This document shows positions 3,366 through 45,270 of a DNA stretch of 45,751 bases, piece by piece. Position numbers and translations under genes: made by a program. The stretch spans positions 1-45,751 of IMG/VR virus record IMGVR_UViG_3300047319_000394; one strand, written 5' to 3'. Source of the DNA: a virus. The first letter of the stretch is position 1. Each line of letters begins with the position of its first letter. The notes under the pieces are model-generated. The model saw nothing but the letters and a program-made list of their open reading frames with translations, was not told where the DNA came from and ran no database searches.

Positions 3366-3577
3366 TGGAGCCGCGGATGCACGTCTGCGGCGGCTGCCGG
3401 CGTTCGCTGCCGCGCACGGACGAGCATTTTCATAACGCCTACGGGCGCAAGGACGGCCTTGCGACTTGGTGCAAGGCGTGCATGTGCAAGTCGTCGAAGG
3501 AATACGAAGCCGAGAAGCGCCGGAGACTGCGCGCCCAGCGCGCGATTGGCGCGACGCTCGATAAGGTGCTGGCCTGA
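3365..3577 (+). CDS. small zinc-ribbon protein
   Basis: 70 aa. It has CGGC at residues 8-11 and CKAC at about 36-39 with an F-H-x-A-Y-G-x-K-D-G-L spacer. This is the zinc-ribbon signature that precedes the HNH core in many phage endonucleases, but here the HNH part is missing and a basic helix (residues 45-60) follows. It may be a DNA-binding remnant or a packaging accessory protein, as HNH proteins often sit near terminases. ATGA overlaps on both sides place it in the head operon. Confidence 0.7.
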   Translation: MEPRMHVCGGCRRSLPRTDEHFHNAYGRKDGLATWCKACMCKSSKEYEAEKRRRLRAQRAIGATLDKVLA

Positions 3578-5283
3578 TGGCGCGCCCGAATCCCAAGCCT
3601 AAGCCGGCGTCCGACTCGCCGCCGTTCGAGTATCCGACGCCGACGCTGATCGACGCCTATCGCAACGGCACCGCATCGCTGGCCGGCGGAACACAGACGC
3701 CGCTCTACGCGCCGCAGATGCCGCCGACATCCAATCTGGGCGCTCCGTCGGCTGCAGCGCCATTCGGTCGTCGGCTCATGCAGGCGGTCGCGATTCGCAT
3801 CCTGGGCGCTGATGCTGGCTCCGTTCTATTCCCTCCGCAGCAGCCGCTACAACCGGTCGCGCAAGCGCCAGCGTTCGGCGCGGTCGGCCGGCCGTGGGAT
3901 TACCCGGTCGGCTATAACACGCGCGTTACGCCGCGCACCGGCCTGCGGATCGGCTTCCCGTTCCTGAAAGCGATGGCCGAGTTCGATCTGGTCCGCATCA
4001 TGATCGAGCGCGTCAAGGAAGAACTCGGGACGATGGCGTGGACGATAGGGCCGCGCGACAAGAAACAAGCGCGCGATAGCGACATGGATGCGATCGAGGA
4101 CATGCTCGCGTATCCGGACAAGGTGCATACCTGGCGCGACTGGACGTTTCAGCTGATGGAGCAGGTGCTGGTGTACGACGCGCCTGCGCTCTGGCTCCGG
4201 CCGACGCGCGGCGGCGATCTGTTCTCGCTCGAAATCATGGACGGGTCGATGTTCACGCCGAAGATCATGGCCGACGGTCGCCTGCCGCCGCCAGAGTTCG
4301 GGCCGGCGTATCAGCAGGTGCTCAAAGGCCTGCCGGCGATCGACTATATCCAGCCGGTGCCGAAAGGCCAGCCGGTGCCGGTCGACGGCTTCGGCGAGCC
4401 GTTCCCCGAACTGCTCTATAAGCCGCGCAACCCGCGCATCGATCTGCCGTACGGCTTCGGGCCGATCGAGCAGATCATCCGGACGCTCGAGATCGGAATT
4501 CTGCGCGAAGACTTCCTGAAGGATTACTACACGGCCGGCAGCATCCCCGACATGTTCGCGTTCGCGCCGGATACGTGGAATCCGGACCAGATCGCGCAGA
4601 TGCAACTGCTGTTCGATTCGGTCAATCTCGGCAACCTCGCCAATCGCCGCGGCGTGCGCTGGCTCCCGGGCGGCGGCAAACCGCCGTACGAGCCGCGCAA
4701 GGATGCGCTTACCGACGCGACCGACGAATGGCTGATCCGCGTCATGTGCTTTGCGTTCGGTTTGTCCCCGATGCCGTTCGTCAAGATGATGAACCGCGCG
4801 AGCGGACAGACGCACGCCGAGCAGCAGAAGGAAGAAGGCACGCTGCCGTATGCGTCGTACCTCGCCGACTTGATGAATCACGTCATCATGCTGAAGTTCG
4901 GCCGGCGCGACATCGTGTTTCGCTGGGAAGAGGAAGTCGCGACCGATCCGCTCGAAGAGGCGCAGCGGTTCGCGCTCTATCTCACGAACAAGGTCTATCA
5001 CCCGGACGAGGTCAGGCAGAAGCTCGGCGACGACGCGATGACGCCGGAACTACGCGCGCAGATGGATCAGCCGACGGTATCGAACGGCGTCAATGCGACC
5101 GTTCTGCCGCCTGACCAGCAGGCCGAAGCGGACCAGCGCAACGAAGACAAAATGAAGGCGCAAGCGGCGATGGCGCCTAAGCCCGGAGCTCCAGGCGCAC
5201 CGGCGCCGGGGGTCGCCGGCAAGATGGGAAAAGGCGTTCGCAAATATGGGCGCAACTCGACCCTGAGCGGGCTTCGCTACTGA
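3577..5283 (+). CDS. portal protein
   Basis: 568 aa. It forms the dodecameric ring at the capsid vertex through which DNA enters and leaves. After a Pro-rich 110-residue leader comes the conserved portal core: an EEL..MAWTI segment, the VLVYDAPALWL strand, ILREDFLKDYY, then FGLSPMPFVKMMNRASGQTHAEQQ, typical of phage portals, and finally WEEEVATDP. The start overlaps the TGA of the zinc-ribbon gene. The last residues in this frame (from about 552) look degenerate, while the -1 frame over the same DNA reads a sensible LDPERASLLRKR sequence that runs into the next gene. See the slippery-site entry. Confidence 0.93.
   Translation: MARPNPKPKPASDSPPFEYPTPTLIDAYRNGTASLAGGTQTPLYAPQMPPTSNLGAPSAAAPFGRRLMQAVAIRILGADAGSVLFPPQQPLQPVAQAPAFGAVGRPWDYPVGYNTRVTPRTGLRIGFPFLKAMAEFDLVRIMIERVKEELGTMAWTIGPRDKKQARDSDMDAIEDMLAYPDKVHTWRDWTFQLMEQVLVYDAPALWLRPTRGGDLFSLEIMDGSMFTPKIMADGRLPPPEFGPAYQQVLKGLPAIDYIQPVPKGQPVPVDGFGEPFPELLYKPRNPRIDLPYGFGPIEQIIRTLEIGILREDFLKDYYTAGSIPDMFAFAPDTWNPDQIAQMQLLFDSVNLGNLANRRGVRWLPGGGKPPYEPRKDALTDATDEWLIRVMCFAFGLSPMPFVKMMNRASGQTHAEQQKEEGTLPYASYLADLMNHVIMLKFGRRDIVFRWEEEVATDPLEEAQRFALYLTNKVYHPDEVRQKLGDDAMTPELRAQMDQPTVSNGVNATVLPPDQQAEADQRNEDKMKAQAAMAPKPGAPGAPAPGVAGKMGKGVRKYGRNSTLSGLRY
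5226..5232 (+). promoter_or_regulatory. candidate -1 ribosomal frameshift site (GGGAAAA)
   Basis: In the portal frame the codons read ATG GGA AAA GGC, giving the heptamer G GGA AAA, a classic X XXY YYZ slippery site. A -1 slip here enters the frame of the head morphogenesis ORF, which is open from 5181, has no ATG/GTG/TTG before 5391, and encodes conserved-looking sequence well upstream of 5391. The predicted fusion is 835 aa. The only downstream hairpin I see is weak (5266-5278, four pairs). Confidence 0.55.
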
Positions 5284-6083
5284 GAAAACGCGATGCTCTC
5301 GCCAAGACAATTCACGCATTCTTCCGGCACGCTGCACCGCGCTTCGCGGCCGACGTCGCACGCATCCGCGCCAGGCTCGGCAAGGCGGACTTGTCGCAAG
5401 ACGAGCAGGACGCCCTCGAGCAGATCATTGCCGGAGTCGATTTTACGGGCTGGTCGATCCTCGTCGGCGAAGTGGACGCCATTCTGGCCGCTATCGTCGA
5501 GGACGGGAGTTACGCCGCTCTCGCCGCGGTTGGAATTGAAACGCGAGCCGCCGAAGGCGCGGCCGGCGTCGTCAACGATTACGCCCGCGCATATGCTCGC
5601 GATCGTGCGGCTGAACTCGTCGGAATGCGGTATGACGAGCTCGGACGACTGGTCGAAAACCCCAACGCAGAATGGGCGATCGACCAGACCACTCGGGACT
5701 TCCTACGCAGCGCCGTGGGCGACGCTATTGCCGGCGGCTGGAGCAACGACAAGCTCGCCAGCGCAATCGCGGACTCGTACGGCTTCAGCGAGGATCGCGC
5801 CATGACGATCGCGCGCACCGAAACGCAGATGGCTGCGAACGCTGGCGCGCTCAACGGCTACAAGGCGAGCGGCGTCGTCGAGCGAAAGCAATGGGTAACT
5901 GCCGAGGACGATCTGGTCGAGGAAGATTGCCTGGCGAACTCCGAAGCTGGACCGCAAGGCGACGGCGTACTCGCATTAGATGACGAATACCCGAGCGGCG
6001 ATGATGCGCCGCCAGCGCACCCGAATTGCCGCTGCGTAATCGTGCCCGTCGTCGACTTCGGCGACACCGCAGAGGGGGCTTGA
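5232..6083 (+). CDS. head morphogenesis protein (SPP1 gp7/MuF-like), probably a frameshift extension of the portal
   Basis: In this frame the ORF yields LDPERASLLRKR, a helical region, then a C-terminal domain with the MuF/SPP1 gp7 signature. That signature includes RAMTIARTETQMAANAG, QWVTAEDD, a D-C pair and AHPNCRCVIVPV. These minor head proteins sit at the portal and act in capsid assembly or DNA ejection. The conserved region begins before the first usable start (TTG 5391, preceded by AAGGCGG), and CTG 5280 is the only other near-cognate codon of note. Expression is therefore either by -1 frameshifting at 5226-5232 or from a truncated TTG start. A sequencing error is the alternative. Confidence 0.75.
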   Translation, partial: RRSQIWAQLDPERASLLRKRDALAKTIHAFFRHAAPRFAADVARIRARLGKADLSQDEQDALEQIIAGVDFTGWSILVGEVDAILAAIVEDGSYAALAAVGIETRAAEGAAGVVNDYARAYARDRAAELVGMRYDELGRLVENPNAEWAIDQTTRDFLRSAVGDAIAGGWSNDKLASAIADSYGFSEDRAMTIARTETQMAANAGALNGYKASGVVERKQWVTAEDDLVEEDCLANSEAGPQGDGVLALDDEYPSGDDAPPAHPNCRCVIVPVVDFGDTAEGA

Positions 6084-18032: not shown

Positions 18033-19757
<1,725 letters not shown>

Positions 19758-19766
19758 GAGAGCATC

Positions 19767-20012
19767 ATGGCAGACGTAACAATTTTCCGCGATCCGACCG
19801 CCGTCAATGTCGTCGTCATCGATGGCGTTCCGCCGGTCGATCAGACGGCTACGGTCCAAGCGCTGACGACGCAACTCGCGACGGCGAACTCGACCATCAC
19901 GCAACTGAACGCCGCCATCGCCGCTGCGCGCACCGCGGCTCAGGCGATCGTCGCGCGCGACGCCGCAATCGTCGAAGGGCAAGCCGTATTGGACGCCCTG
20001 CCGCCGGCATGA
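19767..20012 (+). CDS. small virion-associated protein with adaptor-like N-terminus
   Basis: 81 aa. Residues 1-20 (VTIFRDPTAVNVVVIDG) resemble the starts of the next two genes. Residues 27-75 are an Ala/Thr/Gln-rich coiled coil. ATG follows a GGAGAG site; the stop overlaps the next ATG. It may be a trimerising peg for the fibre complex, by inference from context. Confidence 0.65.
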   Translation: MADVTIFRDPTAVNVVVIDGVPPVDQTATVQALTTQLATANSTITQLNAAIAAARTAAQAIVARDAAIVEGQAVLDALPPA

Positions 20013-21499
20013 AAACGCTTACCGTCTACGCGCCGGGCGCGACGGTCAATGTGATCGATGCCGGGCCGCCGCCGTCCGGCTTAACTGACCCGGCGATTAC
20101 CGACGCGGCCGGCGGAATGACATCCGGCTTCGTCTACGGCGGCGACGTGAGCGGCGCTGCGGTATCGGTCGCGCCGCTGCTGCCGTGGCAGGGGCAAGAC
20201 AATACCGTCGTCGCGTCCGTAAAGGTCGGTACCGGCTACGTCGGGAAAGTTACGATCGATCTGGCAGCGATCTGCAAAAAGGGCGTGCCCGTCCAGATCG
20301 GACTCAAGGGCGCGGGCGCGACGTCGCTTATCGTCGGCGGCATCGCGTCGGCGACTCCGGCGACACTTGCGGTCGTCTATGACGACGGCAGCACCGACAC
20401 GCTATCGCTCGACGCCGAAGTCGAAGTCAACCCGACGACGGCGTACCTGCTCAACAAGCAGGCGACGCTGCCGATCACGAGCTCGGCCGGCCCGTGGTAT
20501 CGCTTCGCCGCGCCGAAGCGCGACGTCCAATCCGCGCCGCTGACGTTGACCACGACGCCTAAGGTCTATACCGGCGGCACGATCAACGTCGTGCGCTTCA
20601 CTGCTGGCTATCTGCCGCAGCCCGCGACGCTCGCGCCGTGGGGCGGAACGCTGCTGATGCAGACGCAATGCTGGGAGGACGGACCGGCATACATAACGGA
20701 CCGGATCATTCAGCCGGCGTACGACCTGTACGGCCAGCGGAAATTCGTCACCGATGACGCCGGAGATCGCGCGCTCGAACTGTGGACAGACCCGCGGCAA
20801 TCGAATCTGCTCGACCTGAAAGTCGGAATCTATCCGGAAGTTAACGAGGCCTGGTACTCGTACGACCTCATGATCATGCCGGGCGCGAACAAGGCCGTCA
20901 TCGAGAACGGCAAGCTGCCCGGCTTCGCGACGGTAACGCGTCCGGACGACGATTACGTCGTATCGCATTATCAACTGCCGTTCCCGCACGGCACGATCGG
21001 AACGCTGATCGCGGGCAACGGCGGCGGCATGGTTCACGGGAACGACGGCTGGAGCGACCGCGGCGACTGGCTCTGTCCGCGTTACCCGCCGCACCCGCTC
21101 GCCGGCAAATGGCCGCTGTCGACCTATTGCTATAACCCTGACTTTGTCGACTTCAACGGCCAGCAGCTGCCGTGGGATAACTATGGGACCGGCGTGCTCG
21201 ACGAGGGACGCTATTACCACATCGAGCACCGGCTGCGCGTCAATAGCGTGCCGGCTACGGGCAAAGGCAACAACGACGGCGAGCTCGAAGCGCGCGTCGA
21301 CGGCAAACTCGCGCTGTTCTATCCGAATCTGCGGCTGCGCGATGCCGGCCCGTACGCGGCGACGACGCAGTACGGCATAGCGACGGCGATGGGAATCCGC
21401 AATTTCTGGCTCTGCGCTTATCACGGCGGCCATAATTTCCCGACGCTCCGGCTTGCTGCATTCAGGATGAAAAACTTCAAGATTTACAGGATCAACTGA
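20009..21499 (+). CDS. receptor-binding / polysaccharide lyase-like protein
   Basis: 496 aa from ATG 20009. Residues 1-19 (MKTLTVYAPGATVNVIDAG) form a short adaptor. The C-terminal 270 residues look like the jelly-roll of polysaccharide lyase family 14. I base this on WYSYDLMIMPG, a KLPGF segment, HIEHRLRVNS, DGELEARVDGKLALF, LRLRD and finally NFWLCAYHGG. It could cleave alginate-like or capsular polysaccharide during adsorption. The frame is open far upstream through the collagen gene, but only from composition. Catalytic residues were not assigned, so a non-enzymatic lectin role remains possible. Confidence 0.65.
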   Translation: MKTLTVYAPGATVNVIDAGPPPSGLTDPAITDAAGGMTSGFVYGGDVSGAAVSVAPLLPWQGQDNTVVASVKVGTGYVGKVTIDLAAICKKGVPVQIGLKGAGATSLIVGGIASATPATLAVVYDDGSTDTLSLDAEVEVNPTTAYLLNKQATLPITSSAGPWYRFAAPKRDVQSAPLTLTTTPKVYTGGTINVVRFTAGYLPQPATLAPWGGTLLMQTQCWEDGPAYITDRIIQPAYDLYGQRKFVTDDAGDRALELWTDPRQSNLLDLKVGIYPEVNEAWYSYDLMIMPGANKAVIENGKLPGFATVTRPDDDYVVSHYQLPFPHGTIGTLIAGNGGGMVHGNDGWSDRGDWLCPRYPPHPLAGKWPLSTYCYNPDFVDFNGQQLPWDNYGTGVLDEGRYYHIEHRLRVNSVPATGKGNNDGELEARVDGKLALFYPNLRLRDAGPYAATTQYGIATAMGIRNFWLCAYHGGHNFPTLRLAAFRMKNFKIYRIN

Positions 21500-43675: not shown

Positions 43676-43969
43676 ATGGCCGCGGCAACGAATATCCGAG
43701 ATACTTCCCTCGAAGCCTACCGGCGCGCGAGCATCACGCCGCGCCAGGCCGAGATTGTCCAATTCATCCAACGCGAGCGGGCTGGTGACTTTACCCGCGG
43801 CGAGATCGCTCACTACGCCGCCATCCCGATCAACTGCGTCTGCCCGCGCGTGCTCGAGCTCATCGAGGCCGGAGTGCTCATGGAAATGCCGCGCCGGAAG
43901 TGCCGGTTCTCCGGGCGCGCGGCATATCCGGTCGCGCTCGTGCCGCGGCAATCGCCGCTGCCGCTATGA
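43676..43969 (+). CDS. winged-helix DNA-binding protein
   Basis: 97 aa. GGGAGG precedes ATG 43676. ASITPRQAEIVQFIQRERAGDFTRGEIAHYAAIP followed by VCPRVLELIEAGVL is a winged-helix pattern (helix-turn-helix plus wing). Probably a regulator of early genes or a replication accessory. ATGA overlap with the methyltransferase. Confidence 0.72.
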   Translation: MAAATNIRDTSLEAYRRASITPRQAEIVQFIQRERAGDFTRGEIAHYAAIPINCVCPRVLELIEAGVLMEMPRRKCRFSGRAAYPVALVPRQSPLPL

Positions 43970-45270
43970 TAAACGAGTGTTACGTCGGCGACGTTCGGGA
44001 CGGCCTGCGGGCGATGATCGCGGCTGGCGTTCGGGCGCAGACTTGCGTTACTTCGCCGCCGTATTGGGGGTTAAGAGATTACGGGACAGCGAAATGGGAT
44101 GGCGGGGATGGCGAATGTTCGCATCTACAACCGGCTACTGGATCGACCCAGAACAAAGGCAACAATGGACGCAATGGGACGCCGTTCGGGGAATTGTGCG
44201 GACTCTGCGGCGCGACCCGCGTCGACCGCCAGATCGGGCTCGAGTCGACAATTGGCGAGTACGTCGAAACGATGGTCGATGTGTTCCGGCTGGTCCGCGA
44301 TGTGCTGGCCGACGATGGGACGCTTTGGCTCAATCTGGGTGACTCGTACAGCGCATCACCAGCAGGAAATCGCGTCCCAAGCGGTATGTCACAGATAGGC
44401 GGCAAGCGCGGGGAAACCCCGCTATCGGCCTATAACACGCAGCCCAAAGAGTTCGGCCCGCTTAAGCCCAAAGACATCTGCGGCATCCCCTGGCGCGTCG
44501 CCTTCGCGCTACAGGCCGACGGCTGGTGGCTGCGGCAGGACATCATTTGGGCGAAGCCTAACCCGATGCCGGAGAGCGTTACCGACCGCTGCACGAAGTC
44601 GCACGAGTACCTGTTCCTGCTGGCGAAGCGGGAACGGTATTACTACGATGCGGCGGCGATTGCGGAAGAAGGAAGCGGGCGCGTACCGGGCAATGTAATA
44701 CCACAAAAGATAGACAGCTCTCGAAACGATGGCGGCATTGCCGGAATATATGCGGCGCAGCAGCGTGAGCAACTTACGCGCAATCGACGATCTGTCTGGA
44801 CGATAGCTACGGAATCCTACGCCGACGCCCACTTCGCCACGTTCCCGACAGCGCTGGTCGAGCCGTGCATCATGGCCGGAACGAGCGAGCGAGGCCACTG
44901 TCCGGCGTGCGGCAAGGGATGGGAGCGCGTTATCGAACGCGTGGGCGGCCCGCCGCGGGGAGATCATCGCGCGAATCATGACGTCGATAATTGCAAGACC
45001 GCGCACGCTACCGGAACGGTCGCGGGCAGCGCGTTGAGTTCCATTTATGCGAAGTATGGCTATGCGGAGAACAGGACTACCGGCTGGCAACCGACGTGCT
45101 CCTGCGGTCTTGATCCGGTTCCGGCCGTCGTCCTCGATCCATTCATGGGAAGCGGAACCGTCGCCCAGGTTGCTCAGTCCCTTGGGCGGCGATGGGCTGG
45201 ATGTGAACTGAATCCCGAGTATGTTGCGATGCAGCGCAAGCGGGCAGCGCAGCTAGGTCTGGCGTTCTAA
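43966..45270 (+). CDS. DNA methyltransferase (N4-cytosine/N6-adenine, beta class)
   Basis: 434 aa from ATG 43966. Motif IV TSPPYWGLRDYG is at residues 29-40 and motif I DPFMGSGTVAQVA near 391-403, followed by GCELNPEYV, so the order IV...I is the beta class. A Cys-rich insert (CGLCGATRVDRQ) and a second zinc-binding site (CPACGKGW, then CSCG) sit between, as in many phage DNA methylases. TSPPYW occurs in both N4C and N6A enzymes, so the base is not decided. Probably guards against host restriction. Confidence 0.92.
   Translation: MINECYVGDVRDGLRAMIAAGVRAQTCVTSPPYWGLRDYGTAKWDGGDGECSHLQPATGSTQNKGNNGRNGTPFGELCGLCGATRVDRQIGLESTIGEYVETMVDVFRLVRDVLADDGTLWLNLGDSYSASPAGNRVPSGMSQIGGKRGETPLSAYNTQPKEFGPLKPKDICGIPWRVAFALQADGWWLRQDIIWAKPNPMPESVTDRCTKSHEYLFLLAKRERYYYDAAAIAEEGSGRVPGNVIPQKIDSSRNDGGIAGIYAAQQREQLTRNRRSVWTIATESYADAHFATFPTALVEPCIMAGTSERGHCPACGKGWERVIERVGGPPRGDHRANHDVDNCKTAHATGTVAGSALSSIYAKYGYAENRTTGWQPTCSCGLDPVPAVVLDPFMGSGTVAQVAQSLGRRWAGCELNPEYVAMQRKRAAQLGLAF

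Follow-up and report, generated by a model that had tools for sequence, protein, structure and literature searches.

In phage lambda, -1 slippage within a structural operon yields a short protein, gpG, and a C-terminally extended form, gpG-T. The locus described here shares this layout and the motif type GGGAAAN (GGGAAAC in phage KL1; PMC3483164), but it joins two head genes, portal and MuF, rather than the pair preceding the tape measure gene. T7/T3 gp10 and Lactobacillus phage A2 are also similar in that a fraction of a head protein is extended at its C terminus through -1 slippage (PMC5009743), although in those phages it is the major capsid protein that gains an Ig-like or other extension, whereas here portal would gain a MuF domain. 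In bacterial dnaX (tau/gamma), slippage at A_AAA_AAG, with an upstream Shine-Dalgarno (SD) element and a downstream stem-loop, gives the shorter product, and reversed arrangements are known (PMC5009743). Relatives of our locus with portal and MuF in one frame look the same as dnaX, while the gene is unrelated and our locus has the reversed arrangement.

The MuF protein of SPP1, gp7, is a portal-binding protein of which few copies reach the procapsid, and virions lacking it are infectious in only about 25% of cases (PMC6316719). The gp6/gp7 pair resembles ours in having a portal-bound MuF protein but differs in that the genes are separate, each with its own ribosome-binding site and ATG, and the association is non-covalent. 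Portal rings are taken to be uniform dodecamers, and the cases in which entry of MuF in few copies has been described, such as SPP1, are all non-covalent. Fusions belonging to PHROG 2662 (Brevundimonas phage Strzyga, Arthrobacter phage Sonali, and Microbacterium phage clusters EA and EB) contain the same parts in the same order in a single reading frame. In Strzyga and a second Brevundimonas phage, Polewnik, a single gene product of about 775 aa contains both parts, with no strong slippery heptamer at the joint in either; the Sonali gene is annotated "portal and MuF-like fusion protein," and such fusions have been described for Microbacterium phages (PMC7302621). Compared with these single-gene fusions, one base of frame splits, at our locus, parts that form one protein in relatives.

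The kind of mechanism considered here is known; the portal-MuF pair has not, as far as we found, been reported before, and its site is conserved family-wide, with the default product repeatedly reversed. We found no earlier report of a portal-MuF frameshift in the accessible literature, which did not cover most subscription papers, and the main text of three large-scale searches for programmed frameshifting (PMC3711429, PMC4066793, PMC10885494; supplementary tables not covered) does not mention portal genes. PRFect gives "MuF-like" as one of its unconfirmed predictions, in connection with VIP2 fusions.

Portal and MuF frames in the window and its close relatives

The window analyzed, 45,751 bases long, is a phage record from IMG/VR in which the portal and MuF genes lie downstream of terminase. 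The features of the joint are as follows.

3577..5283, + strand: portal protein coding sequence (568 aa), the default product; matches PF04860 and phrog_2662/phrog_12
5181..6083, + strand: MuF head-morphogenesis frame (-1), without a usable start codon; matches PF04233 and phrog_2662 positions 467-711
5208..5213, + strand: GGGGGT, SD-like stimulator upstream of the slip site, by anti-SD pairing
5226..5232, + strand: G_GGA_AAA slippery heptamer, the putative -1 frameshift site, in register and conserved in the clade
5268..5270, + strand: codon for the nearly invariant MuF Arg15, 5' of the portal stop, at least 90% conserved in 51 sequences
5281..5283, + strand: portal stop TGA, 48 nt past the heptamer, overlapping a MuF-frame CTG at 5280-5282 (rejected as a start)
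3577..6083, + strand: predicted 835-aa portal-MuF fusion via a -1 shift, with natural in-frame counterparts (L011, L019, L020, and others)

A sequence-only reading of this DNA had proposed that the two genes are joined by a -1 frameshift, an interpretation that our analysis supports. As it described, the MuF frame is open from 5181 and has no ATG, GTG, or TTG until 5391, and the conserved-looking sequence that it placed near 5256, LDPERASLLRKR, starts at 5256. The codon at 5391 is a TTG, and the frame continues to 6083 (the part in use being about 5233-6083). The portal codons at the heptamer, GGA (5227-5229) and AAA (5230-5232), put G_GGA_AAA in exactly the -1 register it had inferred, and joining the frames gives its product length of 835 aa. 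Taken alone, the heptamer is not rare, as a strong heptamer arises in 14% of synonymous recodings of the 55-nt stretch in the window. Considering the evidence below, however, we are confident, though short of certain, that programmed -1 frameshifting occurs at 5226-5232, a judgment made from sequence comparison, with neither product nor efficiency measured.

Elsewhere in the window, an open reading frame (ORF) at 18462-19757 encodes a collagen-like tail fiber (431 aa) and overlaps, in another frame, an ORF at 18548-21499 (983 aa) that has no PHROG match and is probably open just by chance, the DNA being GC-rich. An ORF at 43900-45270 encodes a 456-aa DNA methyltransferase whose two matched profile parts are spaced more widely than in the profile.

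Homology and fold identify the second frame as a MuF domain. It matches PF04233 (Phage_Mu_F) at 54.4 bits, against a gathering cutoff of 29.6, and phrog_2662, a 717-position "portal" profile, matches the window portal with positions 23-427 and the MuF frame with positions 467-711, in that order. With residues counted from the GK of the heptamer, Arg15 is at least 90% conserved across 51 MuF sequences, and the AlphaFold model built on the alignment (pLDDT, 92.4) shows residues 4-7 forming a strand and residues 16-51 forming a helix. Both the homology and the predicted fold start at the slip site. A Foldseek search with this model returned predicted viral head morphogenesis proteins (E value of about 1e-8), while neither sequence nor fold searches found a MuF relative in the PDB. 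Weak sequence matches of the portal to TAL effectors (E values of at least 0.002) look like chance.

MuF at -1, together with G_GGA_AAA in register, was found in IMG/VR contigs at 99, 87, 82, 69, and 56% portal identity, which are separate contigs from different samples or metagenomes. The distance from heptamer to portal stop in these relatives is 48 or 54 nt. Two of them, L015 and L017, carry a stop in the -1 frame three bases 5' of the heptamer, and ribosomes can therefore enter the MuF frame nowhere but at the heptamer or within the following 48 to 54 nt. In an alignment of eight clade members, no invariant block is longer than the one covering the heptamer region. The heptamer itself is present in every member but L028, which has an A9 run in the same place and is nested inside the window's GGGAAAA clade; the motif has been altered there and the site retained. 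No close relative has an ATG-started head gene at the joint, and no close-relative contig shows a missing base that would fuse the two frames, the two outcomes that the sequence-only reading had named as refuting it. The comparison of homologues that it suggested turned up both a slippery site conserved in relatives down to 56% portal identity and natural portal-MuF fusions in more distant ones (the Brevundimonas phages, PHROG 2662). No cultured phage close to the window was found, the best being the Brevundimonas phages at about 40% portal identity.

Survey of the joint across the family

We gathered relatives with portal and MuF profiles from viral contigs and bacterial species genomes. Among 135 distinct loci, MuF was in frame with portal in 82, at -1 in 40, at +1 in 5, and separate or distant in 8. 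Four loci with MuF at +1 (L168, L169, L142, and L242) have no strong -1 heptamer. Clustering at 75% portal identity gave 75 clusters, 47 in-frame and 28 "-1." Counting as strong any in-register AAAAAAN or GGGAAAN no more than about 55 nt from where MuF homology starts, we found a heptamer at the joint in 24 of the 28 "-1" clusters and 29 of the 47 in-frame clusters, compared with 0.4% and 0.9% of control stretches of equal length from the same genes. Random synonymous recoding of the same stretches, using each gene's own codon usage, gave means of 2.75 ("-1") and 5.03 (in-frame) and maxima of 9 and 11, a total of about 8 against the 53 seen. Clusters share descent, and their counts are not fully independent. 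Lys-Lys pairs were encoded as AAA-AAA in 51/84 cases at the joint versus 12/124 elsewhere (Fisher P = 3e-15). The usual Lys codon is AAG. The excess of heptamers and of AAA-AAA pairs at the joint points to selection acting on nucleotides rather than on protein.

A MuF start codon (ATG, GTG, or TTG, up to ten codons into the homology) is absent from 21 of the 24 heptamer-bearing "-1" clusters. All four "-1" clusters without a heptamer (L115, L069, L177, and L101), which are more distant from the window, have one; L101 is a single contig and may hold an indel. The in-frame form also occurs in a Herbaspirillum seropedicae element (NZ_CP034394), with AAG GAG ... GCA AAA AAA GCC; as this record is circular and described as complete, such sites are not artifacts of metagenomes. 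Cultured hosts of the in-frame group include Chromobacterium haemolyticum and Paludibacterium purpuratum. No strong site was found in 18/47 in-frame clusters, which suggests that a ring made entirely of fusions can function too. Two loci (L111, 2813-4019; L156, 2484-3735) have an open -1 frame beneath ~1.2 kb of the portal gene; this extends well past the overlap in use and is probably a chance opening in GC-rich DNA.

Stimulators, possible slippage routes, and competing explanations

Anti-SD pairing upstream of the sites peaks 18 to 22 nt 5' of the heptamer (9-mer start), and the best anti-SD energy averages -6.9 versus -3.4 in controls (P = 5e-14), reaching -9.8 in the window clade (GGAGGT in L008). 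An SD-like element precedes 25/27 short sites (GGGAAAA, A6, and A7), against 17% of controls and 24% of linker positions, and 7/26 of the A9-A10 sites. Downstream, no stable RNA structure was found in the window (z of about +0.7) or its clade or at the A9-A10 sites, while in-frame relatives with short sites have stable folds (mean z of -2.2 to -2.5); such structures commonly accompany programmed -1 frameshifting but are not required for it. A9-A10 runs without SD element or downstream structure make up 26/53 family sites; those lacking SD-like or structural stimulators include L039, L040, L059, L135, L139, L151, L170, and L235, among others. G_GGA_AAA itself fits V_VV.A_AA.R, among the most efficient frameshift motifs in E. 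coli (PMC4066793).

These patterns are compatible with two routes: the ribosome slipping at short, stimulated sites, that of the window among them, and perhaps RNA polymerase slipping at the A9-A10 runs. The latter would produce mRNAs with fused frames from the A run, as in Thermus dnaX, which uses transcriptional slippage (PMC5009743), and the many long runs without SD element or downstream structure would suit it. However, the window has only G3A4, far below the A9/T9 runs known to slip, and the short sites bear ribosomal stimulators, so for the window itself we find polymerase slippage very improbable. The existence of in-frame fusion relatives might also suggest that the two frames were separated by a mistake in sequencing or assembly, or that the locus is a broken fusion gene. 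That the frames and heptamer are common to contigs from different samples makes a sequencing slip very unlikely; moreover, the contigs sharing them at 56 to 99% identity keep both parts intact, and MuF lies at -1 in 28 clusters across the family. We give error or decay almost no credence.

A different possibility is that MuF is made as a separate protein, as it is from its own gene in SPP1 (PMC6316719), by re-initiation at CTG 5280, whose CTGA overlaps the portal stop, or from the late start TTG 5391. Codons of this kind do recur, since the portal stop in the window clade is a TGA after Tyr that creates CTGA or TTGA, the only candidate for re-initiation. However, CTG 5280 is MuF residue 19 and TTG 5391 is residue 56, and Arg15, the first strand, and the helix are encoded upstream of those starts; the loss of conserved, folded parts from either start is evidence against re-initiation. 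The portal genes of L042, L059, L135, L139, and L192 end in TAA or TAG and offer no start codon at that point, and re-initiation would leave the heptamer unexplained. A separate MuF protein thus keeps only a slim chance, if the largest among these alternatives. The SD-like element could instead act as an internal ribosome-binding site, with MuF beginning at the NTG in front of GGA AAA. An NTG does precede GGA AAA in the GGGAAAA group, and 5/32 SD sites have a MuF-frame start 4 to 14 nt downstream, but 27/32 have no such start, and the ATG at 5224 in the window is in the portal frame, where it would give only a ~19-aa peptide unless the ribosome also slipped. Internal initiation therefore seems to us barely tenable.

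Under programmed frameshifting, which we favor, ribosomes on the portal gene would slip back one base at G_GGA_AAA (5226-5232), aided by pairing of the upstream GGGGGT with the anti-SD. Those that slip would read on through the MuF frame to make the 835-aa fusion, and those that do not would terminate at 5283 and release the 568-aa portal. Both forms may then assemble in one ring, carrying a limited number of covalently attached MuF domains into the head. The slippage itself, its efficiency, and the mixed ring are inferred, as is the role of MuF, for which portal binding and entry into the head in few copies are taken from SPP1.

Two predicted arrangements of the default product

In the "-1" group, which includes the window, the predicted default product is portal alone, and the slip would make the fusion, as in lambda G/GT. 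In the in-frame group, the fusion is the predicted default, and the slip would give portal alone, the dnaX arrangement with its shorter gamma product. Slipped ribosomes there would leave the MuF frame and reach a -1 stop 4 to 55 codons later. We found no sign that a nearby -1 stop has been selected in this class, the median being 23 codons at sites and controls alike. In-frame fusions with a strong heptamer at the joint include L011, L046 (A7 with AAGGAGG), L066, L067, L119, L138, L196, and L254, among others.

The mode has changed at least 12 times on the portal tree by parsimony, with at least 6 of the changes forced by well-supported branches. L080 ("-1") and L011 (in frame) are sisters that both carry A_AAA_AAG and yet have opposite modes. 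A reversal of the dnaX type is natural if slippage is near 50%, according to one review (PMC5009743), and by that analogy, the pattern suggests, without showing, an intermediate slippage efficiency in the portal-MuF family. The sequence-only reading had expected the fusion in a minority of portals; as the default has been swapped repeatedly, the efficiency could also be intermediate, and the proportion is unmeasured. A broader proposal is that the family builds mosaic portal rings from one gene through a conserved frameshift, the default being flipped repeatedly by small indels and slippage being near a level workable either way. We regard the case for this proposal as evenly balanced.

Covalent MuF on a fraction of portal subunits would, we infer, fix both its copy number and its position. 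If this is true, ribosome slippage would set the copy number of MuF, and asymmetric portal rings are predicted. The frameshift would add a head gene pair to the known recoding genes of phages and would account for MuF genes that lack a start codon as well as for apparent fusions of the portal and MuF genes. The portal-MuF family may then represent a natural series of repeated reversals of the default frame within a single gene family.
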